NCBI GenBank assembly: GCA_021779935.1 | Contig: JAJXZT010000005.1 | Location: 1-57,879 of the forward strand | Reading direction: 5' to 3' | Source: Acidobacteriota bacterium | GTDB taxonomy: Bacteria; Acidobacteriota; Terriglobia; Terriglobales; Acidobacteriaceae | Length of the DNA stretch: 57,879 nt | In this document: positions 36,505 to 51,498 of the stretch, piece by piece | Numbering within the stretch: position 1 is the stretch's first letter | Layout: the number at the start of each line of letters is the position of its first letter | Position numbers and translations under genes: made by a program | The notes under the pieces: model-generated | Seen by the model: the letters and a program-made list of their open reading frames with translations, nothing else | Database searches by the model: none | What the model was told of the DNA's origin: nothing

Positions 36505-36525
36505 AGATTGCGATACACAAGTCCG

Positions 36526-38118
36526 TTAGATGACATCCCTGGTGAAGTTGCCGTCCACCATTCTCCAGATGCCGAGAGGATTTGCGTCCTTTAACTCATC
36601 CGGTAGAGCTTCGCTGGGAAATCCCTGATAACAGACGAGCCGCGCAAATCGGAAGATGGCCTGCGAGCCGACGGACGTAGAGCGACCATCGGAAGTTGCA
36701 GGATACGGACCGCCATGCACCATCGCATGGCAGACCTCGACGCCAGTCGGGAAGCCGTTTAATAGAAGCCGCCCAACCTTATCCACAAGAATCGACGAGA
36801 GATCGGCCGCTCCGCGGAGATCTTCATCCGTGGCATGGAGCGTGGCCGTCAGATGGCCCTCGAAATTGCGAGCAATCTCCATCATCTGCTCACGCGTGGA
36901 ATAACGCACTAGCAGTGTCGCCGGGCCAAAAACTTCATCGGCCAACGATGGGTTGTGCAGAAATGACTGCGCATCGGTTTCGAACAAGGCGGCGAGTGCG
37001 TGAAGCGGCGGAACATCCCTCGACGGCTGCGCCTCTGCAAGTAGCCGCAACGTCCCGACCGACTTGCGCTCAACGACCGCCGAACAGTATGACTTCCGGA
37101 TGCCTGGCGTAAGCATCGTGAATGCTGCGGAGCCCCGCACGAGATCGGACAGTTTGGCGACAAACGCAGCGGTCTGTGGAGTTTCCGGGACGAGGACTAT
37201 GCCAGGCTTGGTGCAGAACTGGCCCGCTCCGAGCGTAAAGGAACCGTGCAGTCCGGCGGCGATTTGTTCCGCGCGTTCGCGCATTGCTCCGGGCAAAACG
37301 AATACGGGATTTGTGCTGCTCATCTCGCCGAAAAACGGAATGGGCTCGGGACGGGAAGCGCAGGCGCGCATCAGCGCTTGTCCCGCAGCGCGTGATCCAG
37401 TGAAACCGACGGCTTTCACCAGCGGATGATTGACCAGCGCCGTGCCGACCTCTATACCCTTGTCGAAGAGAAGAGAAAAAACTCCCTCGGGTATATGGCA
37501 CTCGCGACTCGCTTCTCGAACCGCCTCGCCAACGAGCGCGCTGGTACCGGGATGCGCGGGATGCGCCTTCACGATCACTGGATTTCCGGCGGCAAGAGCG
37601 GAAGCCGTGTCACCGCCGGCAACCGAAAATGCGAGCGGAAAATTGCTGGCGCCAAAGACGACGACCGGACCGATGGGATGCAACATCGAGCGGATATCGG
37701 GTTTCGGAGCGGGCTGCCGCGCAGGATCGGCGCGGTCGATTCGCGCCCCGACCCAGGAGCCTTCTTCAATAACTTGCGCAAAGAGCCGAAGCTGATTGCA
37801 GGTTCGTCCAACTTCGCCCTGCAGACGTGGGCGCGGCAAAGCCGTCTCCTGCATGGCGCGCTCGATCAGCGTCTCGGCGATGGACTCGATTCGGCCCGCG
37901 ACGGCACGAAGGAACTCCGCGCGAATCTTCGCTGGCACATGGCTGTAGGTCGCGAAGGCTTTCGCGGCCAACCGGGCGGCCGTGTCCACATCGCGCGGGC
38001 CGGCAGACGTAAATTCTCCTGGCAGCGGTTCACCGGTCGAAGGGCTGATTGCGTGAAATACTTCCCCGCTTTCCTGCCCGTCGTGAAATCCAAGTATCGA
38101 CCGTCCCGAGAATTGCAC
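36526..38118 (-). CDS. Alpha-ketoglutarate semialdehyde (2,5-dioxovalerate) dehydrogenase
   Basis: Aldehyde dehydrogenase of the KGSADH type: GPVVVFGASNFPLAFSVAGG, VKAHPAHPGTS, GFTGSRAAGQAL, GEMSSTNPVFVLPGA and the nucleophile in GAGQFCTKPG. 530 residues. It oxidises alpha-ketoglutarate semialdehyde to alpha-ketoglutarate, the last step of trans-4-hydroxyproline (or pentose/glucarate) degradation. It follows the DapA-like deaminase by 21 bases, at the end of the hydroxyproline operon. Confidence 0.9.
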   Translation of the reverse strand: MQFSGRSILGFHDGQESGEVFHAISPSTGEPLPGEFTSAGPRDVDTAARLAAKAFATYSHVPAKIRAEFLRAVAGRIESIAETLIERAMQETALPRPRLQGEVGRTCNQLRLFAQVIEEGSWVGARIDRADPARQPAPKPDIRSMLHPIGPVVVFGASNFPLAFSVAGGDTASALAAGNPVIVKAHPAHPGTSALVGEAVREASRECHIPEGVFSLLFDKGIEVGTALVNHPLVKAVGFTGSRAAGQALMRACASRPEPIPFFGEMSSTNPVFVLPGAMRERAEQIAAGLHGSFTLGAGQFCTKPGIVLVPETPQTAAFVAKLSDLVRGSAAFTMLTPGIRKSYCSAVVERKSVGTLRLLAEAQPSRDVPPLHALAALFETDAQSFLHNPSLADEVFGPATLLVRYSTREQMMEIARNFEGHLTATLHATDEDLRGAADLSSILVDKVGRLLLNGFPTGVEVCHAMVHGGPYPATSDGRSTSVGSQAIFRFARLVCYQGFPSEALPDELKDANPLGIWRMVDGNFTRDVI

Positions 38119-38139
38119 CTCTGCCCTCCTTATTATTTA

Positions 38140-39060
38140 TCAGGCGAAAGCCACTACTTTACTGATGGCGGACTGTGGGCGATTCTCGATCGCCTCGCGA
38201 ACAATCCGCAGCGTCGCTTCCCGCTCCTCGCCAATAATCTCGAGCCTTGGCGCACGCACCCTTGCGCTGCCGACGCCAAGCACTTCCTGCACCAGTTTGA
38301 TCAGTTGCACAAACTTCGGCACTGTATCGAGCCGCAACAGCGGCAGAAACCAGCGATAAAGTTCGAACGCCCTCTCTGATTCACCGGCTATGCCGAGATC
38401 GAATAGGTCGACCGATTGACGGGGCAACGCATTGGCGAGACCGGCAATCCAGCCGCATGCGCCAACTCCAATGGCCTCAAGGATTCCATCATCTACCCCA
38501 ACAAACACCGAGAGCCGATCCCCAAGGAGCGCACGAATCGCACTGACACGCCGCGTGTCCATGGAGGATTCCTTGACTGCATGGAAGTTGCCATACTCTC
38601 CGGCCAACTCAGTAATCTGTTCGGGAAGAAAATCCGTACCGTAGGCGACGGGGTTATTGTAAAGCATGCAGGAGAGGGGAGTGGCCGCGAACACGGCGGC
38701 AACGTGCGCCTTCATCTCTCTCCAGTCGCCGCGGTATACGTAGGGCGGAAGAACCATCAGTCCGTCACAGCCTGCGTCCAGCGCGCCTTTTGCAATAGCA
38801 ATCGACTCGTCCGTACTGAGCGACGAAACTGCCGCTACCACCGGTGCGCGACCTCGCGCGGCATCGACGCCAGTGCGCAGCACTTTTATCTTTTCATCAA
38901 AGGACAGCGTTGCGCCCTCACCCAGCGAGCCGAGCAGTACGAGGCCTGAGCAACCATTGTCGAGCAGCCAGCGGCAGTGCTGCGCCATGAATGCATGGTC
39001 GACTTTATAATTGCGGTCAAAGCAGGTTGTGACAGCGGGCATCACGCCCTTCCAATTCAT
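38140..39060 (-). CDS. DapA-family pyrroline-4-hydroxy-2-carboxylate deaminase (probable)
   Basis: A DHDPS/NAL-superfamily TIM barrel of 306 residues: the glycine-rich GLVLLGSLGEGATLSFDEK, catalytic Tyr in MLYNNPVAYGTD and Schiff-base Lys in FHAVKESSMD. In hydroxyproline clusters this family converts 1-pyrroline-4-hydroxy-2-carboxylate to alpha-ketoglutarate semialdehyde. Start overlaps the preceding dehydrogenase gene by ATGA (39060/39057). Assignment rests mainly on operon context, as DapA-family substrates are hard to tell from sequence. Confidence 0.82.
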   Translation of the reverse strand: MNWKGVMPAVTTCFDRNYKVDHAFMAQHCRWLLDNGCSGLVLLGSLGEGATLSFDEKIKVLRTGVDAARGRAPVVAAVSSLSTDESIAIAKGALDAGCDGLMVLPPYVYRGDWREMKAHVAAVFAATPLSCMLYNNPVAYGTDFLPEQITELAGEYGNFHAVKESSMDTRRVSAIRALLGDRLSVFVGVDDGILEAIGVGACGWIAGLANALPRQSVDLFDLGIAGESERAFELYRWFLPLLRLDTVPKFVQLIKLVQEVLGVGSARVRAPRLEIIGEEREATLRIVREAIENRPQSAISKVVAFA

Positions 39061-40364
39061 CGAGTTCCTCCAGTTGTCCTATCGCTTTCCACTTCCAGTT
39101 CAGTTTCCATCCCCGAGAGGCTCGCGACACGAGCCGGAAATACCGGCGGTCGCACGGAAGCCGCTTCCCATGAAAAAAGAAATTCCATCGCAGGACCGCA
39201 GACGCGTCCCTGGCATGGGCCCATTCCGCAACGCGTGTGTAACTTGGCCGCGCGAGAAGATGCGTGTCCCCCCATGCGCGCGAACGTTACATCCTCGCAG
39301 CGACAGACGATCGTTTCCGGCGAGGACAGACTTTTCAGTTCCTCTCGCGGCGCAAAAGCCCGTGCCAAGCTACTGACGAACTTCTGTAGCTTGCGGTGAT
39401 TACCGAACAATGCGCGTGCGGCGCTTTCGTCGCCGGCAGCGGCAAGACCGGCAATCTCACCCTCGACCACAGCAAGTTCCACTCCTCCGATGCCGGTAAG
39501 TTCGCCGGCGCAATAAACGGCCGGCACCGAGGTTCGCAGGAAATCATCCACCGCGACGAATCCGCCACGCAGTTCGCATCCAAGCAACGCGGCTAACTCG
39601 TTGTTGGGGACAAGATGAAATCCGCACGCCAGGTAGTCGCAGGCGATCTCCTGCTTTTCCCCATTGCGAGAAACCAAAACAGATTCCAGGCGATCGAAGC
39701 CCTGTGCGGCAAGCGGCCAGCAATTCGCGGCAAAAGGTACGAAACCCAATCCAAGTTTGAGTTTGAGTCCCTGCGCAATTTTGCCCGGATGGGATATCAG
39801 TGAAAATCCAAAACCTGCCAGCCGCGTCCACGAAGTTTGCTCGCAGATGAGCGGAATTTCTGCTCCGTGGCGGCGAAGATACGCAGCCACGGCAAGCAGT
39901 AACGGGCCGCTTCCGGCAACCACTACCCGCTTTTCGTGAATCGGCAGGCCGGACTTTACCAGTGCTTGCAGACCTCCCGCTCCCATCACATTGGGCAGCG
40001 TCCAACCGGGAAATGGGAGGAAGCGTTCGCGTGCTCCGGTGGCAAGAATCAGGGTGCGGTAACGAAGCGTTCGCGGAACGTCGCGCTCTTCGGCGAGCAA
40101 CATTCCGGACTGCTGCTGGCCAATGACGCGCGTACCGGGGAACAATCGCGGACCGACTTTTTGGAAGCGATTCATCCACTCCCGCGCCTGCATGTCCTCC
40201 GCCTTCTCCGCACCTCCGCGCCAGATTTGCCCTCCAAGTGCTGGATTGTCATCGACGACCGCAACACGGGCTCCGCACTCGGCGGCGCGGGTGGCGGCGG
40301 CAATGCCCGCTGGTCCGGCCCCAACCACGATCACATCAAATTGTTCGCGGCCGGCGCTAGTCAT
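39057..40364 (-). CDS. D-hydroxyproline dehydrogenase, NAD(P)/FAD-type subunit with Bfd-like iron-sulfur site
   Basis: A pyridine nucleotide-disulfide oxidoreductase-like protein: GAGPAGIAAATRAAECGA at residues 16-33, LATGARERFLPFPGWTLP, VVVAGSGPLLLA, and a C-terminal BFD-type [2Fe-2S] segment IVCRCEDV ... CGMGPCQGRVCG. 435 residues. It is the alpha-type subunit of the heterotrimeric amine/hydroxyproline dehydrogenases (HcnB/OoxA-like). Start overlaps the small ferredoxin gene by 8 bases. Confidence 0.87.
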   Translation of the reverse strand: MTSAGREQFDVIVVGAGPAGIAAATRAAECGARVAVVDDNPALGGQIWRGGAEKAEDMQAREWMNRFQKVGPRLFPGTRVIGQQQSGMLLAEERDVPRTLRYRTLILATGARERFLPFPGWTLPNVMGAGGLQALVKSGLPIHEKRVVVAGSGPLLLAVAAYLRRHGAEIPLICEQTSWTRLAGFGFSLISHPGKIAQGLKLKLGLGFVPFAANCWPLAAQGFDRLESVLVSRNGEKQEIACDYLACGFHLVPNNELAALLGCELRGGFVAVDDFLRTSVPAVYCAGELTGIGGVELAVVEGEIAGLAAAGDESAARALFGNHRKLQKFVSSLARAFAPREELKSLSSPETIVCRCEDVTFARMGGHASSRAAKLHTRCGMGPCQGRVCGPAMEFLFSWEAASVRPPVFPARVASLSGMETELEVESDRTTGGTR

Positions 40365-40602
40365 CGGTCCTCACATTCATCCCGTGCTCGCAGAGCGTTT
40401 GACAGCCACGGCAATGCGATACGTCATCGATCTTGACGCGGCATTCGTAGCAGACGCCCATTCCGCAGAGTGGTGCGCGTGGTTCGTCCGTGACGGAGTG
40501 ACGACAGATTGCACCCGCCAGCAGGACGGCGACAGCAACCGTGGTGCCGCGAGGCACGGAAACTTGTATTCCATTTACCGTCAGCGTGATCTGTTCAGAC
40601 AT
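40357..40602 (-). CDS. D-hydroxyproline dehydrogenase small [2Fe-2S] subunit
   Basis: Ferredoxin-like subunit of 81 residues with a Cys cluster (CGMGVCYEC ... CRGCQTLC) of the HcnA/OoxB type. The ATG at 40602 overlaps the end of the DadA-like gene by 8 bases; an upstream ATG at 40620 would add only RRSRR. It forms the electron-transfer link between the two flavoprotein subunits encoded on either side. Confidence 0.85.
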   Translation of the reverse strand: MSEQITLTVNGIQVSVPRGTTVAVAVLLAGAICRHSVTDEPRAPLCGMGVCYECRVKIDDVSHCRGCQTLCEHGMNVRTDD

Positions 40603-41725
40603 GCGACGGCTCCTGCGCAACGCGCGACGGCAGGTACGGCCCTATGGGAATCGAGGAATCGGCGCCGGTGAGTTGGTCGGCGATCAGGCGTCCTGTCGCC
40701 AGGGAAGTTGTGATGCCGAGCCCTTCATGTCCGGCAGCAATATACGTCGCCGGATCTTCCGGCGCGGGGCCGATAAGCGGCAGCTTGTCGGGCGTCGCGG
40801 GACGAAACCCAGCCCATGCGCGAATAGCGGAGAGTTGCGCCAAACCCGGCATATAGTACTGCGCTCTCTGCAACATCTTCGCGGTGATCTCCGCCTCAAC
40901 TTCTGCGGACTCAGCACCGTACTGACGCGACGATCCAATCAGCACCTGGCCGGTCTTGCGCGGTTGAACGTTGAACGCCACGGAATCGCTGGAAATGGAA
41001 TGAGCGCTCTTCAGGTATCCAAGTTCCACGAGTTGGTGGCGAACGAATCCCGGATATCGGTCGGTGATGACGAGATGTCCCTTGCGCCTCCGTATCTCCA
41101 GGCCTGGCGTAAGTTCAGGCGCCCAGGCGCCGGTGGCGTTGACCACGACGCTGGCGGAGATTTCTCTGCCATCCGAGAGACGAACCCGACCCCGTCCGAT
41201 CTGCTGCACCGCCTTGCCGAGATGGATTGCAACGCCTTGCGCCTTAGCGCGTTCGATCAGAAAACTGGCAGCACAGGGCGGATACAAGACGCCGTCATCC
41301 GGCACGAGAAGACCACCGGCAAGTCCTCGACGAAGGTTAGGCTCAAGAATCGCGAGTTCGGCCGAGTTCACGATTTCCGCGTTCACTCCGCGCGATGTGT
41401 AGTAGGAGTGCTTGCGCCGCACTTCCTCCATCTCTTCCTCATCGGCGGCGACCCAGATGGTTCCGCTGCGCTCGAACTCAACTTCGGCCGGCAAGTCGTC
41501 ACGCAACTCGTTCCAGAGCTGACGCGAATATTGGGTAAGCGCAAACTGCGCGGGCGAGTCGTCCATGACGACGATGTGCCCCATGCCGGCGGCAGTCGAG
41601 CCTCCGCCAATGACGTCGCGATCGAGGACAGTGACGCGCATTCCGCGCCGCGCACACTCCAGCGCGCACGCCGCGCCCACAATACCCGCGCCAACCACAA
41701 CGACGTCATGCGATGAAGCTGTCAT
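40595..41725 (-). CDS. FAD-dependent D-amino-acid/D-hydroxyproline dehydrogenase catalytic subunit
   Basis: DadA-family flavoprotein of 376 residues: VVVVGAGIVGAACALECARRG at the N-terminus (Rossmann loop), GGSTAAGMGHIVV, and IRAWAGFRPATPDKLPLIG plus YIAAGHEGLGITTS at the C-terminus. It oxidises cis-4-hydroxy-D-proline to a cyclic imine. It overlaps the epimerase gene by ATGA (41725/41722) and the iron-sulfur subunit gene by 8 bases, so translational coupling is expected. Confidence 0.88.
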   Translation of the reverse strand: MTASSHDVVVVGAGIVGAACALECARRGMRVTVLDRDVIGGGSTAAGMGHIVVMDDSPAQFALTQYSRQLWNELRDDLPAEVEFERSGTIWVAADEEEMEEVRRKHSYYTSRGVNAEIVNSAELAILEPNLRRGLAGGLLVPDDGVLYPPCAASFLIERAKAQGVAIHLGKAVQQIGRGRVRLSDGREISASVVVNATGAWAPELTPGLEIRRRKGHLVITDRYPGFVRHQLVELGYLKSAHSISSDSVAFNVQPRKTGQVLIGSSRQYGAESAEVEAEITAKMLQRAQYYMPGLAQLSAIRAWAGFRPATPDKLPLIGPAPEDPATYIAAGHEGLGITTSLATGRLIADQLTGADSSIPIGPYLPSRVAQEPSHV

Positions 41726-42675
41726 GCCCGAATGCCTGAACAGAACGGATCGTGAGGATCAAGCACGAGGTCGGCTTCCGCGCAGACAAAAGCCGAGCCC
41801 TTGATGCTTGGATATACCTTGCCTCCGCGTATTTCCACACTGCCTTCGAAGACGCTGCCGACAATGCTTTCTTGTCGCCAGATTTCTCCCGGCTTCAATT
41901 TGCCGTCAGCGTAGAGGCACGCCATCTTGGCGCTGGTTCCCGTACCGCAGGGCGAACGGTCATAAGCCTTGCCGGGACAAAGCACGAAATTACGGCTGTG
42001 CGCACCTGCTACGGTGGGCGGCCCAAACAATTCCACGTGATCGATCTCCGCACCATTTTCGCCGGTAACGCCACTGTCCCGGAGAGCGTTCCGGATGGCC
42101 CACGTGAAGGCCGTCAATGCTTCGACATTGGCAAGCGACAATTCCATCTCGTGTCGCTCGACAAGGAAAAACCAGTTGCCTCCCCACGCAACATCACCGC
42201 ACACACTCCCGTAGCCCGGAACATCGACGGGCACACGTGCCTGATAGCGATAGCTCGGTATGTTGTGGACCGTGACTTCTCCCGTCTTGTGAAGGATCGC
42301 CGTGACATCGCCAACTGGAGTTTCAATACGATGCTCGCCGGAAGCGATGCGTCCGAGATAGGCAAGCGAGGCAACCAGGCCAATCGTCCCGTGACCACAC
42401 ATACCCAGGTAGCCGACATTATTAAAAAAGATGACGCCAGCCGTTGCCGTCCGATCGACGGGTTCACACAGAAGCGCACCCACAATCACATCCGAGCCGC
42501 GCGGTTCGTTGACAACTGCCGAGCGAAACTCATCATGGTTGCTGCGAAAAAGCTCAAGACGTTGCGCAAGTGAACCGGTTCCGAGGTCGGGACCGCCACT
42601 GACAACCAGGCGTGTGGGTTCTCCGCCGGTGTGAGAATCGATAACACGGACTTTAATGGACTGGAGAGAATGCAT
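41722..42675 (-). CDS. 4-hydroxyproline 2-epimerase (proline racemase family)
   Basis: Proline racemase superfamily protein of 317 residues with both catalytic cysteines: GMCGHGT (about residue 91) and DRSPCGTGTSA (about residue 236). Having Cys in both sites marks a racemase/epimerase rather than the Cys/Thr trans-3-hydroxyproline dehydratase. Context with a D-hydroxyproline dehydrogenase points to the trans-4-hydroxy-L-proline epimerase that starts the pathway. ATG 42675 fits the family start; ATG 42744 would translate the palindrome region. Confidence 0.88.
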   Translation of the reverse strand: MHSLQSIKVRVIDSHTGGEPTRLVVSGGPDLGTGSLAQRLELFRSNHDEFRSAVVNEPRGSDVIVGALLCEPVDRTATAGVIFFNNVGYLGMCGHGTIGLVASLAYLGRIASGEHRIETPVGDVTAILHKTGEVTVHNIPSYRYQARVPVDVPGYGSVCGDVAWGGNWFFLVERHEMELSLANVEALTAFTWAIRNALRDSGVTGENGAEIDHVELFGPPTVAGAHSRNFVLCPGKAYDRSPCGTGTSAKMACLYADGKLKPGEIWRQESIVGSVFEGSVEIRGGKVYPSIKGSAFVCAEADLVLDPHDPFCSGIRA

Positions 42676-42729
42676 GATTGGCTGCCCGGGACACGAGAGT
42701 CGAATAAGTTGGCTCCAAGCAGATATTAT

Positions 42730-42742
42730 GGATATAATATCC
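42730..42742. promoter_or_regulatory. Palindrome upstream of the hydroxyproline operon
   Basis: GGATAT-A-ATATCC is a perfect 13-base palindrome, 55 bases upstream of the epimerase ATG. It lies in an AT-rich stretch that likely contains the operon promoter. A GntR-type operator is plausible given the GntR gene at 35785. Confidence 0.45.
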
Positions 42743-42861
42743 AATAGTCAACATGGAAAGCCGCCTCTATCTTCGCCGAACGCCATCTTAAGGCGAAACA
42801 TTGATCACCGGCCACCCATTTGAAGCCGATGAGCCCTCTCTGTTATTGACATAAAAACGGC

Positions 42862-42885
42862 AAAAGCCCGCTGGAAGACGGGCTT
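42862..42885 (-). terminator. Terminator for the minus-strand transcript of the small membrane ORF
   Basis: AAGCCCG-(8 nt)-CGGGCTT stem; on the minus strand it is followed by TTG and further T-rich sequence. It lies downstream of the small ORF starting at 43130 and of the longer reading that continues to 42963. Confidence 0.65.
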
Positions 42886-43037
42886 GTTGTGAGGAGACTT
42901 CTTTCATGGAACGCGACGAAATGATGCCACGGGCTCTGCACCTGTTTTCCCGCGACAAACCTCTATAGCGGGCAGGATGGTGGTTTTTCCTCGGTGTCGG
43001 GCTTGCCGTCGGCCGAAACTCGGCCTCGTGGCACACC

Positions 43038-43130
43038 TCAAGTCGGCACTCCAAGTTTGGGGAATAGCCATTGCGTAATCGCCAGGTAGACGAAAATAAC
43101 GGCCAGAAGAGAAAGCATCTCTCGAAACAT
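43038..43130 (-). CDS. Tiny membrane protein; possible selenoprotein if the TGA is read through
   Basis: A 30-codon frame begins at ATG 43130 with AAGGAG seven bases upstream (at an ideal distance) and encodes MFREML, then one membrane helix (LLAVIFVYLAI) and WLFPKLGVPT before TGA at 43040-43038. If TGA is decoded as selenocysteine, the frame runs on for 24 codons to TAG 42965-42963. A perfect 6-bp hairpin with a GTT loop sits 12-26 bases after the TGA, at the distance and with the loop G expected of a bacterial SECIS element, and it is not followed by a T-run. Function unknown. Confidence 0.55.
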   Translation of the reverse strand: MFREMLSLLAVIFVYLAITQWLFPKLGVPT

Positions 43131-43232
43131 AGAACTCCTTACTACTATAGATGCCGTGCGACACTGAATTGTTACAGGTTACGCAAGATGTAACGCAAGC
43201 GCAACGACGTGCATTTCTTCCCAGAGGCAATC

Positions 43233-43682
43233 ATGGAGAACTCCTACCAATACACAACATCGGCAACATGGACCAACGGACGCCGCGGCACAATCCACGC
43301 GGAAGGTATCGGCCACTCACTCGACTTCTCGGCTCCGCCAGAGTTCCAGGGAACGGCGGGCATCTGGACGCCGGAACATTTCCTGGTCGCGGCCGTAGCC
43401 ACCTGCTTCATCACCACGTTCCGTGCGATCGCGGAATTCTCGAAGTTCGAGATCGGCGGTCTGCAAGTCACGGCGGAAGGTGTGCTCAGCAAAGGCGAGG
43501 GCGGCTTTAAATTTACAAATGTAATTGTTCGCCCAACGCTGACCATCCTCCGCGAAGAGGACCGGGAGCGCGGACTGAAGTTGATGGACAAGGCCGAACA
43601 CGCCTGTCTTGTGTCCCGTTCGCTGAACTCCCAGATCTCTCTGGAACCGACGGTGATTGTCGGCGGCGCCGTATCTGCTTGA
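43233..43682 (+). CDS. OsmC-family peroxidase-like protein
   Basis: 149 residues of the OsmC/Ohr fold: ATWTNGRRGTIHAEG, FQGTAGIWTPEHFLVAAVATC with the peroxidatic-type Cys, VRPTLTILREEDRERGLKLMDKAEHACLVSRSL with the second Cys, then SLEPTV. OsmC proteins reduce organic peroxides; this one is of the short SACOL/YhfA-like type. ATG 43233 is chosen with CAGAGGC upstream. It is divergent from the tiny membrane ORF, so the two may share a stress-responsive promoter region. Confidence 0.85.
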   Translation: MENSYQYTTSATWTNGRRGTIHAEGIGHSLDFSAPPEFQGTAGIWTPEHFLVAAVATCFITTFRAIAEFSKFEIGGLQVTAEGVLSKGEGGFKFTNVIVRPTLTILREEDRERGLKLMDKAEHACLVSRSLNSQISLEPTVIVGGAVSA

Positions 43683-43735: not shown

Positions 43736-44293
43736 TCATTGCCCGGCGGCTGCGGCCTGCTGCGGTACCGGTTGCGTCGCCAGCGCGGCCTTGATGTTCT
43801 CTTCCACCTCGTGATGGCTGATGAGTCCGGCGACAGATGCGACGACACGTCCATCGCGTCCGATGTAGAAGGTTGTCGGCAGCGCATCCACTCCGCCATA
43901 TTCGTCCGCTACCGTCGGTCCGCCTTGCAACACCGGATAGTTGATCCCTCGCTGCTCTGCGAATTTCTCCACGACGTCACGACCACCCTCGTCGAGCGAG
44001 ACACCGACGACCTGCAGGCCCTGTGCACCGTATTGCTTTTGCAAGTCGATAAACCAGGGAATCTCCATGCGGCAGGGTGGACACCATGTGGCCCAGAAAT
44101 TGAGCACCACCGCCTTGCCGCGATAATCCGAAAGATGAACCGTGTGGCCGTTGAGGTCCTGCAGGGCAAAGTCCGGAGCAACCTGGTTGGAGCCTGAAGC
44201 GATCATGGCGGCCGGTCTTGCGTAATGGTTGGCCAGAAGCATGATCAAAATAACCATGGCCAGCACGGATGCGATTGCGAGATTTCTCTTCAC
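43736..44293 (-). CDS. TlpA/ResA-like membrane-anchored thioredoxin
   Basis: N-terminal membrane anchor (LAIASVLAMVILIMLL), then a thioredoxin fold with active site WATWCPPCRMEIP, PTTFYIGRDG (cis-Pro) and a C-terminal tail. It would reduce or isomerise disulfides, for example in cytochrome c maturation, in the periplasm. GTG 44293 has an AAGGGAAAA upstream; an alternative ATG at 44356 has no ribosome-binding site. Nearby c-type cytochromes make a heme-maturation role plausible. Confidence 0.82.
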   Translation of the reverse strand: MKRNLAIASVLAMVILIMLLANHYARPAAMIASGSNQVAPDFALQDLNGHTVHLSDYRGKAVVLNFWATWCPPCRMEIPWFIDLQKQYGAQGLQVVGVSLDEGGRDVVEKFAEQRGINYPVLQGGPTVADEYGGVDALPTTFYIGRDGRVVASVAGLISHHEVEENIKAALATQPVPQQAAAAGQ

Positions 44294-44430
44294 CTTGAAT
44301 TTTCCCTTTATCAATCCAGTCAACGATACAACTCTCAACGGTACGGCACGTGCCATTCGAAAAAACTGCCAGTCGCCAGAGCAACGCTCTTGAATCGGCA
44401 GTGCCGCAAATCAAGCGAGTATGTGCTGGA

Positions 44431-49716: not shown

Positions 49717-49737
49717 GTTACAATAGCAGTTGAGAAG

Positions 49738-50076
49738 ATGCCAAAGAAGACCAATAACTGCTCGGCCACCGACCGACTCGTATACGAGCGTCAGTCAAGG
49801 ATCTGCAAGGCCTTTGCCCACCCCAGTCGCATCCATCTGCTCGACCTGCTTGGCTCGGGCGAACGTGCGTGCAGTGATTTGCAGGAAGAGTTGAATATCT
49901 CCAAGGCAAACCTGTCGCAGCACCTCACGCTGCTCAAGTCGGCCGGCATCATTGTCACCCGCAGGGACGGCAAACAGATATTCTGCTCGCTCGCAATGCC
50001 ACAAGTTAAGCATGCGTGCGGAATCATCCGCGACGTGCTTCGCGCGCAGATCAAGGCCAGCGCTAAACTGGTTTAA
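49738..50076 (+). CDS. ArsR-family winged-helix transcriptional regulator
   Basis: 112 residues. The wHTH is clear: KAFAHPSRIHLLDLLGSGE, then ACSDLQEELNISKANLSQHL, LLKSAGIIVTRRDGK. Four Cys occur (NNC, RICKA, RACSD and HACG), so metal or redox sensing is possible; the classical ELCVCDL metal box is replaced by RACSDL. It follows the octaheme cytochrome by 70 bases and may control that module, but this is inferred from proximity. Confidence 0.85.
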   Translation: MPKKTNNCSATDRLVYERQSRICKAFAHPSRIHLLDLLGSGERACSDLQEELNISKANLSQHLTLLKSAGIIVTRRDGKQIFCSLAMPQVKHACGIIRDVLRAQIKASAKLV

Positions 50077-50097
50077 CCTTTACAATCCCATTCTTGC

Positions 50098-50478
50098 TTA
50101 CGCGGTCTCGTCGATGATGGCGAGTATCTCGCGTTGTATTTCACCTGCAAGTTTGTCCACGCCATCCAGTCCCGTTGCGCCCAGAAGATCCGTGGGCATC
50201 ACCGTGGCAATGGTCGAACCCGCGGCGTCTCCGTAGACGGAGATTCGGCATGGGAGCACGGTCGACACACTCATATCGTGTCCCAGCGCCAAGGAAGCAG
50301 CCTGCGGATTGCAGACGTCGAACACGCGGCACTCCGGTTCGATCTCGATTCCCTTCGAGTGCAGAGTCTGCTTGAGATCGAGGACGTGAAGAACGCCAAA
50401 CTTGTGGCGCGCGGCAGCGTCCCGGAGGCGTTGGTCAATTTCGTCAGGAGAATGATTGGAACGTCTGGTGTGTATCAT
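50098..50478 (-). CDS. DUF302-family protein
   Basis: 126 residues with the DUF302 pattern RHKFGVLHVLDLKQTLHSKGI and the acidic-aromatic core EIEPECRVFDVCNPQAA, ending LAGEIQREILAI. The DUF302 fold is a heme/iron-linked alpha-beta barrel of unknown function. It is convergent with the ArsR gene (22 bases apart) and on the opposite strand. Cytoplasmic. Confidence 0.85.
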   Translation of the reverse strand: MIHTRRSNHSPDEIDQRLRDAAARHKFGVLHVLDLKQTLHSKGIEIEPECRVFDVCNPQAASLALGHDMSVSTVLPCRISVYGDAAGSTIATVMPTDLLGATGLDGVDKLAGEIQREILAIIDETA

Positions 50479-50538
50479 CGCGACTCCTTGCGATTACGTC
50501 TGCATCAATTGTAAAGCTGCTTCGCACACAGTGATGGC

Positions 50539-51498
50539 TTAGCCCGATGTCTTCAGACGGCGCGACGCGCGTGCGGCCTTGCTCGCCTCAAGTGAATCGC
50601 GGAGCGACGGTTGGCAATGGAGCGCGAAACGGCGGAAAGCCCCGGCGGCTCCATTCGGCTCCGGTCCCGCCGGATAGACCAGGCAAAGCTCTCGCAGGAT
50701 ACGCAGTCCGGACACTGCAACCACTCTCACAGAGCCGAGCGCAACCTCCTTGGCAATCGCCGAAACCGAGATGAGGCCGACGCCCAGTCCGGCTTCAATG
50801 CTTGAAATGATGGCCTCCGTCGAGTCCAGTTCCATCGCGAGGGAAAGAGACTTCGTCTTCAGCCCGTACTTCTTAAGCGCCATCTCCACCACACGCCGTG
50901 TTCCCGAACCTCGCTCGCGCATCAGCAGCGGAGCGTCCGCAAGCTGACTTGGATGGATGCTTCCCTGCTCCGCCCATTCATGACTGGCGGGAACCACGAG
51001 CACCAGTTCGTCTTCGAAGAACGGCTCGGCATGAACATCGCGTCGCAACGGCGGCCCTTCGATCAGACCGATTCCGATCTTCTGCTCCACCAGTGACTCG
51101 ACGATCTGCTCCGTGTTGCCACTGATGATCGAGAGCCGCACGCGCGGGTGCTCTTTGCGGAATTCCCCGAGAAGTCTTGGCAATAGATATTGCGCAATGG
51201 TCGTCGAGGCTCCCAGGCGCAACACACCGCCCTGCTCGCCGGAGAGTGCCATGATTTCCGATTCGGCCTCCTGGGTGAGCTCGGTGATACGCCGGGCATA
51301 CTTCAGCAGGACTTTGCCCGCGGGTGTCAGCGCCACCCGACTGCCCGTCCGATCCAGTAACTGTGAGCCAAGCTCTTCCTCCAGCGCCTTGATCTGCAAA
51401 GTGACGGCAGGCTGAGTCAGGTAGAGTTCCTCGGCGGCCTTGCGAAAATTCAGGTTCTCAGCGACGGCGCGAAATACCTTGAGACGGAAATTTTCCAT
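50539..51498 (-). CDS. LysR-family regulator (YeiE-like)
   Basis: 319 residues: N-terminal HTH (FRKAAEELYLTQPAVTLQIK with the LysR recognition helix) and an effector-binding domain (LRLGASTTIAQYLLPRLLGEF; SIISGNTEQIVESL; ELDSTEAIISSIEAGLGVGLIS). It is divergent from the yeiH-like gene with 154 bases between, the usual arrangement for a LysR regulator controlling its neighbour. Confidence 0.92.
   Translation of the reverse strand: MENFRLKVFRAVAENLNFRKAAEELYLTQPAVTLQIKALEEELGSQLLDRTGSRVALTPAGKVLLKYARRITELTQEAESEIMALSGEQGGVLRLGASTTIAQYLLPRLLGEFRKEHPRVRLSIISGNTEQIVESLVEQKIGIGLIEGPPLRRDVHAEPFFEDELVLVVPASHEWAEQGSIHPSQLADAPLLMRERGSGTRRVVEMALKKYGLKTKSLSLAMELDSTEAIISSIEAGLGVGLISVSAIAKEVALGSVRVVAVSGLRILRELCLVYPAGPEPNGAAGAFRRFALHCQPSLRDSLEASKAARASRRLKTSG

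Follow-up and report, generated by a model that had tools for sequence, protein, structure and literature searches.

A probable family of small single-helix membrane selenoproteins in Acidobacteriota

The locus and its reading frame

The stretch of acidobacterial DNA analysed here, referred to as the window, is 57,879 nucleotides long and carries on its minus strand, at 42963..43130, a short gene that is predicted from its sequence and its homologues to encode a selenoprotein of 55 residues, MFREMLSLLAVIFVYLAITQWLFPKLGVPT-U-GVPRGRVSADGKPDTEEKPPSCPL, with selenocysteine (Sec) at position 31. A ribosome-binding site, AAGGAG (43135..43140, minus strand), is separated by a 4-base spacer from the ATG at 43130, and the 30 codons of MFREMLSLLAVIFVYLAITQWLFPKLGVPT lead from there to a TGA at 43040-43038. 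Past this codon the frame remains open for another 24 codons, GVPRGRVSADGKPDTEEKPPSCPL, up to a TAG at 42965-42963. A standard-stop ORF caller would end the gene at codon 30. The first-pass annotation of this DNA had described both parts, a 30-codon membrane ORF with a ribosome-binding site that ends at TGA and an open frame of 24 codons beyond it, and both are found as described on the minus strand.

The annotation had also proposed a SECIS-like hairpin in bases 13-27 past the TGA, and such an element is present at 43011..43025 (minus strand), with the core GGCCGA-GTT-TCGGCC, a 6-bp stem, a loop of 3 nucleotides that starts with G, and 18 nucleotides between the TGA and the loop. The outer extension of the stem that it had suggested is formed by TGCC/GGCA pairs, which bring the hairpin to -16.3 kcal/mol. 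As it had noted, there is no T run behind this hairpin, and a separate terminator-like hairpin followed by a T run lies 3' of the gene at 42862..42885 on the same strand. The cysteine that it had expected downstream of the TGA is present as well, with only two further residues behind it in the window protein.

On the other side, the selenoprotein gene has a divergent neighbour on the plus strand (43209..43682), an OsmC-family peroxiredoxin (Pfam PF02566, E 3e-16) whose nearest NCBIfam model, below its cut-off, is the SACOL1771-family peroxiredoxin. It is followed by a TlpA/AhpC-TSA thioredoxin-like protein on the minus strand (43736..44356; Pfam PF00578, E 3e-30). Beside the selenoprotein gene, at 36525-42744, a minus-strand cluster contains genes that were named from their sequence as proline-racemase-like, FAD amino-acid oxidase-like, 2Fe-2S, a second FAD protein, dihydrodipicolinate-synthase-like and aldehyde-dehydrogenase-like, a set that we take to resemble hydroxyproline catabolism genes. 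About 7 kb away, at 49737-51498, lie ArsR-like (plus strand), DUF302-like and LysR-like genes, again named by likeness. An Rfam scan of the window at gathering thresholds returned two tRNAs only; Rfam may hold no bacterial SECIS model.

Homologues and their distribution

An initial search with the 55-residue protein against 100 genomes of the same family returned homologues with TGA at the corresponding position among many chance matches, and the matches that lacked the motif were disregarded. Two profiles were then used, one of 14 members (A1) and one of 32 members for the class and phylum searches. Profile A1 gave 52 matches in 47 of 398 host-family genomes, and the codon at the Sec position, read in each of them, is TGA in all 52. 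In the class search, 70 matches at E<=1e-4 were found in 399 genomes, 67 of them with TGA, and the phylum search, whose sample overlaps with that of the class, gave 92 matches at E<1e-3, with TGA in 91. Seventeen class and 13 phylum rows fell in the range from E 1e-3 to 0.05; most of them lack TGA, and they were regarded as chance matches. Direct reading of the codon at 46 loci retrieved beyond the host set gave TGA at 43 and, for the 3 matches that lack TGA, a cysteine codon. The family is phylum-wide in Acidobacteriota, and 92 of the 396 sampled phylum genomes have a match at E<1e-3.

The homologues share a motif with the usual form W-x-x-P-[KR]-x-G-V-P-T-Sec. In the host family the core reads T-[QR]-W-L-L-P-K-L-G-V-P-T-U, and the wider core is approximately W-[VI]-L-P-[RK]-x-G-V-P-T-U-M-S-x-S-C, with the variants GVQT, GVAT and GVST. 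In a wider contig collection the single sequence P0001 found no relative, and profile A1 recovered 37 loci, of which 34 bear Acidobacteria-type or Terriglobia names, two are labelled as Candidatus Sulfotelmatobacter, also an acidobacterium, and one (L089) only as 'bacterium'. Beyond Acidobacteriota the search consisted of one strict peptide pattern, and tblastn of the family consensus against plasmids gave no match.

The comparisons described below use 48 distinct members, in which identical copies are merged and which include at least one member found only in the wider contig collection (L089). Three host-family matches (L131, L132 and L133) were left out of this set because none of them has an intact in-frame helix; they keep the TGA and the tail behind a broken or truncated helix, a possible sign of gene decay, and the genome of L132 (G308) has no selA match.

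Selenocysteine machinery and cysteine forms

The first-pass annotation had called for a check of the genome for selA, selB, selC and selD. The host assembly (72 contigs, 99% complete) encodes selA, selB and selD together with a tRNA-Sec with anticodon TCA. The host selD (L010 1501-2424) contains an in-frame TGA of its own, with the motif UASK in the context GUASK, so SelD is itself probably a selenoprotein; the motif fits the UxxK form given for SelD in a table of selenoprotein families (PMC13188914).

Presence of the gene follows that of selA. A selA match was obtained in 184 of 398 host-family genomes, in 44 of 47 carriers vs 140 of 351 non-carriers (p 3e-13), and in the phylum test set in 76 of 77 TGA genomes vs 0 of 3 Cys genomes (Fisher p 5e-5), both p values being too small because the genomes are related and not independent. 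The three family carriers that are negative for selA (G293, G308 and G337) are only 75-82% complete, so that within the 256 better genomes, 113 of which are selA-positive, every one of the 30 carriers has selA. The phylum set comprised 80 genomes, namely the 3 Cys genomes and 77 of the better-scoring TGA genomes, with 44 further genomes and the weakest phylum rows outside the test. The selA match is above the family cut-off in 75 of the 76 positive TGA genomes, and the sole TGA genome without a match in this set, G781, is 91% complete. In many genomes, including G006, G026, G081 and G261, the selA profile match is split in two, and the best piece begins near profile position 137-140; there may be an insertion in the SelA of several genera.

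Homologues with cysteine in place of the TGA, which the earlier annotation had named as the supporting observation (pattern GVPT-C), exist in three genomes: L165 with GIPTC-MSGAC, L171 with GIPTC-MSNSC and L203 with GIGTC-MSGAC. All three genomes lack a match to selA, the one gene of the Sec machinery used for this comparison, and one of them (G659) has a completeness of 89% and a contamination of 7%. As to the hairpin, these Cys forms differ: it is missing in L203, no better than in shuffled sequences in L165, and kept in GC-rich form in L171 (p 0.027). The exchange of Sec and Cys tracks selA, which is the pattern expected of a true Sec/Cys pair. With the Sec machinery in the genome and cysteine at the TGA position of relatives, the selenoprotein reading advanced in the first-pass annotation is supported. 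Furthermore, the family may help to explain why the Sec machinery has been retained in Acidobacteriota.

The hairpin

The limits published for bacterial SECIS elements are a loop of 3-9 nucleotides, a stem of 4-16 bp, a spacing of 16-37 nucleotides, a G in the first two loop bases and an MFE of -7.5 or lower (PMC13188914). Applied by hand, these limits all accommodate the window hairpin (6 bp, 3-nucleotide loop with G first, 18 nucleotides from the TGA, -8.9 kcal/mol on its own). Taken alone the hairpin is only mildly unusual, as 2.8% of 5000 base-shuffles of its own sequence equal or exceed its strength; the evidence that it exceeds chance is comparative.

A hairpin can be placed in 47 of the 48 distinct members, and the loop starts in one codon phase in 41 of these 47, most often 17, 20 or 23 nucleotides from the TGA. 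The window hairpin, at 18 nucleotides, sits one codon closer to the TGA than those of the two best single-sequence matches (L136 and L137, centred at 21); the spacing is not a fixed value and varies mostly by whole codons. In the 34 distinct hairpins, which represent the 41 members taken into the pairing count (the window and six others fall outside it), 94.5% of cells are paired vs 27-53% when the partner is slid by 1-2 bases, a percentage that is biased to the chosen register because each loop was set where its own sequence pairs best. Two-sided (compensatory) changes in the same hairpins number 36 vs 0-10 in the slid registers, and these changes, together with the codon phasing, are stronger signs than the pairing percentage. 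By a simple score, a hairpin with shuffle p<=0.05 is present in 39 of the 48 members of the host-family set and in 28 of 43 other phylum members, and none reaches that level in the remaining 9 and 15, respectively. The hairpin is found repeatedly across the phylum, mostly at whole-codon spacings and with compensatory changes.

Protein shape and the tail after the TGA

The product is predicted to be a single membrane helix that leads into P-K-L-G-V-P-T-Sec and ends in a short flexible tail with a cysteine. In an AlphaFold2 model built with alignment A2, residues 2-25 (43056..43127, minus strand) form the helix and the remainder is unstructured, with a mean pLDDT of 66.8 and low confidence outside the helix. 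All 48 members carry more positive charge in the stretch behind the helix than at the N-terminus, and by the positive-inside rule the Sec tail is therefore probably cytoplasmic.

The TGA lies inside a longer conserved reading frame, and the coding signal past it is modest. In the tails of 15 sequence pairs, with no sequence used twice, changes at codon positions 1, 2 and 3 number 73, 61 and 112 (p 2e-4). The codon changes in the tail comprise 99 nonsynonymous vs 54 synonymous, as compared to 53 vs 78 in the helix part. These patterns suggest that the tail is a loosely constrained coding peptide, and the hairpin may account for some of its conservation. A tail cysteine is present in 47 of the 48 distinct members, and in 35 of 48 it stands five residues after Sec (U-x4-C).

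Gene neighbourhood

Neighbouring genes were counted at 68 loci within 2.5 kb and, for comparison, at 4-9 kb. The counts are suggestive and carry no formal test, because the reference proteins were picked from the same loci and the loci are related: YgaP-like genes were found near 29 vs 1, OsmC 13 vs 2, ECF sigma factors 12 vs 2, ArsR 10 vs 1, DUF302 7 vs 1, TlpA 6 vs 1 and UspA (named by eye) 4 vs 0, with RND pumps weakly enriched (20 vs 9), rhodanese (2 vs 1) and CoA-disulfide reductase (2 vs 2) not enriched, and MFP (1 vs 19) and TolC (3 vs 14) more frequent at the greater distance. Of the 68 loci, 54 have one or more of 11 such genes in the nearer range. A methyltransferase signal near the TGA in the same count was dropped, as it came from an over-long reference ORF.

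Two recurrent arrangements can be distinguished. In an operon clade, TolC, MFP, an RND pump and a 62-residue YgaP-like membrane gene lie upstream on the same strand, and in a second clade the selenoprotein gene lies between an upstream ArsR-type regulator and a downstream methyltransferase. The RND/YgaP operon arrangement is not that of the window copy. Among individual loci, OsmC genes adjoin L221 and L226, DUF302 genes adjoin L213, L216 and L225, UspA-like genes (named by eye) adjoin L213, L225 and L228, CoA-disulfide-reductase-like genes adjoin L211 and L215, and an RND pump adjoins L222. The pump of L150 is an RND permease of the AcrB/AcrD/AcrF type that falls under all NCBIfam cut-offs. 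The L216 locus also has an MTH895/ArsE-like thioredoxin and a SaoE-related permease, the latter below its cut-off. In L218 and L223, a thiC-like gene (named by eye) ends just 5' of the selenoprotein homologue.

Decoding of the TGA and possible functions

The TGA is almost certainly decoded as selenocysteine by SelB and tRNA-Sec, aided by the hairpin that begins 12 bases downstream, as far as can be judged from the sequences compared. The converse reading is that of an ordinary 30-residue membrane peptide that ends at the TGA, the hairpin then being another RNA element such as a transcription attenuator. The mild distinctiveness of the hairpin taken alone and the weak conservation of the tail would fit such a peptide, as would two weak single-sequence matches with an internal TAG (L022 and L025, E 3-4e-4); these two, however, have no motif that ends at the stop and are not recovered by the profile. 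Moreover, an ordinary stop codon does not account for the use of TGA, and never TAA or TAG, in all family members read, for hairpin spacings that shift mostly by whole codons, or for a tail cysteine that is kept in 47 of 48 members, and an attenuator sits poorly with the missing T run. The cysteine at the TGA position in three homologues from genomes without a selA match is strongly contrary to it, and the ordinary peptide is accordingly very improbable. It is equally improbable that some carriers hold only a fossil of the gene or one in decay, although three of 52 family matches (L131, L132 and L133) have lost the intact in-frame helix; the window copy, by contrast, has its ribosome-binding site, intact helix, TGA, hairpin and tail.

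If the TGA is read as selenocysteine, the Sec/Cys pair would most likely act as a membrane-tethered redox switch. Having captured a reactive sulfur, peroxide or soft-metal species, the switch would be restored via a selenenyl-sulfide by cellular thiol systems. It would operate alongside YgaP-like membrane proteins, OsmC peroxiredoxins and RND efflux pumps, and its role would be defence against thiol-reactive stress (sulfane sulfur, peroxide or metalloid), with sulfane sulfur or peroxide as the most likely agents. Gene neighbourhood and chemistry make it reasonably probable that the broad function is redox or sulfur defence at the membrane. The more specific proposal, that these phylum-wide Sec-tipped single-helix peptides are the redox- or sulfur-accepting subunit of a YgaP-like and RND envelope machinery, is tentative.

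Two other functions are compatible with a selenoprotein. One is that the protein works together with OsmC/TlpA-type partners to reduce (lipid) hydroperoxides at the membrane and does not handle sulfur. The OsmC-family gene that adjoins the window copy points to this role, as do the OsmC genes near 13 of the 68 loci and the TlpA-like genes near 6, all within 2.5 kb. Against this, the commonest neighbour is YgaP-like (29 of 68 loci), and the model contains a helix and a tail only, with no peroxidase fold, so this role is somewhat unlikely. A mainly structural role is also conceivable. AcrZ is a small subunit of the AcrB pump and provides a precedent for a selenoprotein that serves as a small subunit of an RND efflux pump, in which Sec would bind an arsenical, a mercurial or an electrophile. 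The small size and single helix suit such a subunit. So do the RND matches that 20 of the 68 loci have within 2.5 kb, the position of the pump and YgaP-like genes in the operon clade, immediately upstream and in the same orientation, and the thioredoxin and permease of L216. Against it, 48 of the 68 loci, the window included, have no RND match within 2.5 kb, and RND matches occur at 4-9 kb in 9 loci. This pump-subunit role is unlikely, slightly more so than the hydroperoxide one.

Were the peptides indeed the redox- or sulfur-accepting subunit of a YgaP-like and RND machinery, selenium would in these bacteria directly power a defence at the membrane against reactive sulfur, peroxide or metalloid species. 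The protein is small and easily made and tested, and the recurring neighbourhood makes a selenium-dependent membrane step in sulfur or oxidant handling testable.

Comparison with known systems

Selenoproteins as a kind are well known, and the present gene represents a new selenoprotein family with an unusual shape, in a phylum described as abundant in soil. Scans of Pfam-A and NCBIfam release 20.0 (June 2026) with the window protein, 14 A1 members and 10 phylum members gave no match with an E-value below 0.05. Among the 119 prokaryotic selenoprotein families and subfamilies tabulated in 2026 (PMC13188914) there is no small single-helix GVPTU family; the scans took in those that have NCBIfam or Pfam models, and a few others were compared by name and motif alone. 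The families described by Haft in 2023 and 2025 are listed in that table, mostly with models from NCBIfam, one of the scanned libraries. No report of the family was found in the consulted literature on selenoproteins, Acidobacteria and the neighbour genes, where an earlier unnamed listing is possible, and the motif strings led to one unrelated paper at most. In the portion of the deep-Sep study that was available (PMC12013277), 0 new genes are given for the one acidobacterium shown.

The family resembles the redox selenoproteins of the UxxC/CxxU type (PMC13188914) in its in-frame UGA, in a bSECIS-type hairpin within 16-37 nucleotides, in cysteine replacing Sec in relatives and in a possible redox Sec/Cys pair. 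Unlike those families, it has no predicted thioredoxin-like fold, only one helix and a short tail, and its commonest spacing is U-x4-C (35 of 48 members). A second likeness lies in the gene context. In E. coli, ygaP (rhodanese-like) is controlled by the sulfide-responsive ArsR-type repressor YgaV, according to the available part of PMC9774250, and the YgaP-like genes (PF11127) near 29 of 68 loci and the ArsR-type regulators nearby recall this ygaVP arrangement. The likeness is one of context only, as the selenoprotein itself, unlike the YgaP-like PF11127 proteins, matches no Pfam model. Finally, there are points of contact with Haft's Sao and Tso systems (PMC13188914, NCBIfam): L216 has the SaoE-related permease, below cut-off, and a thioredoxin-like protein, and an ArsR protein near one homologue resembles TsoR, also below cut-off. 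A difference is that the scanned members of the present family have no NCBIfam match better than E 0.05.
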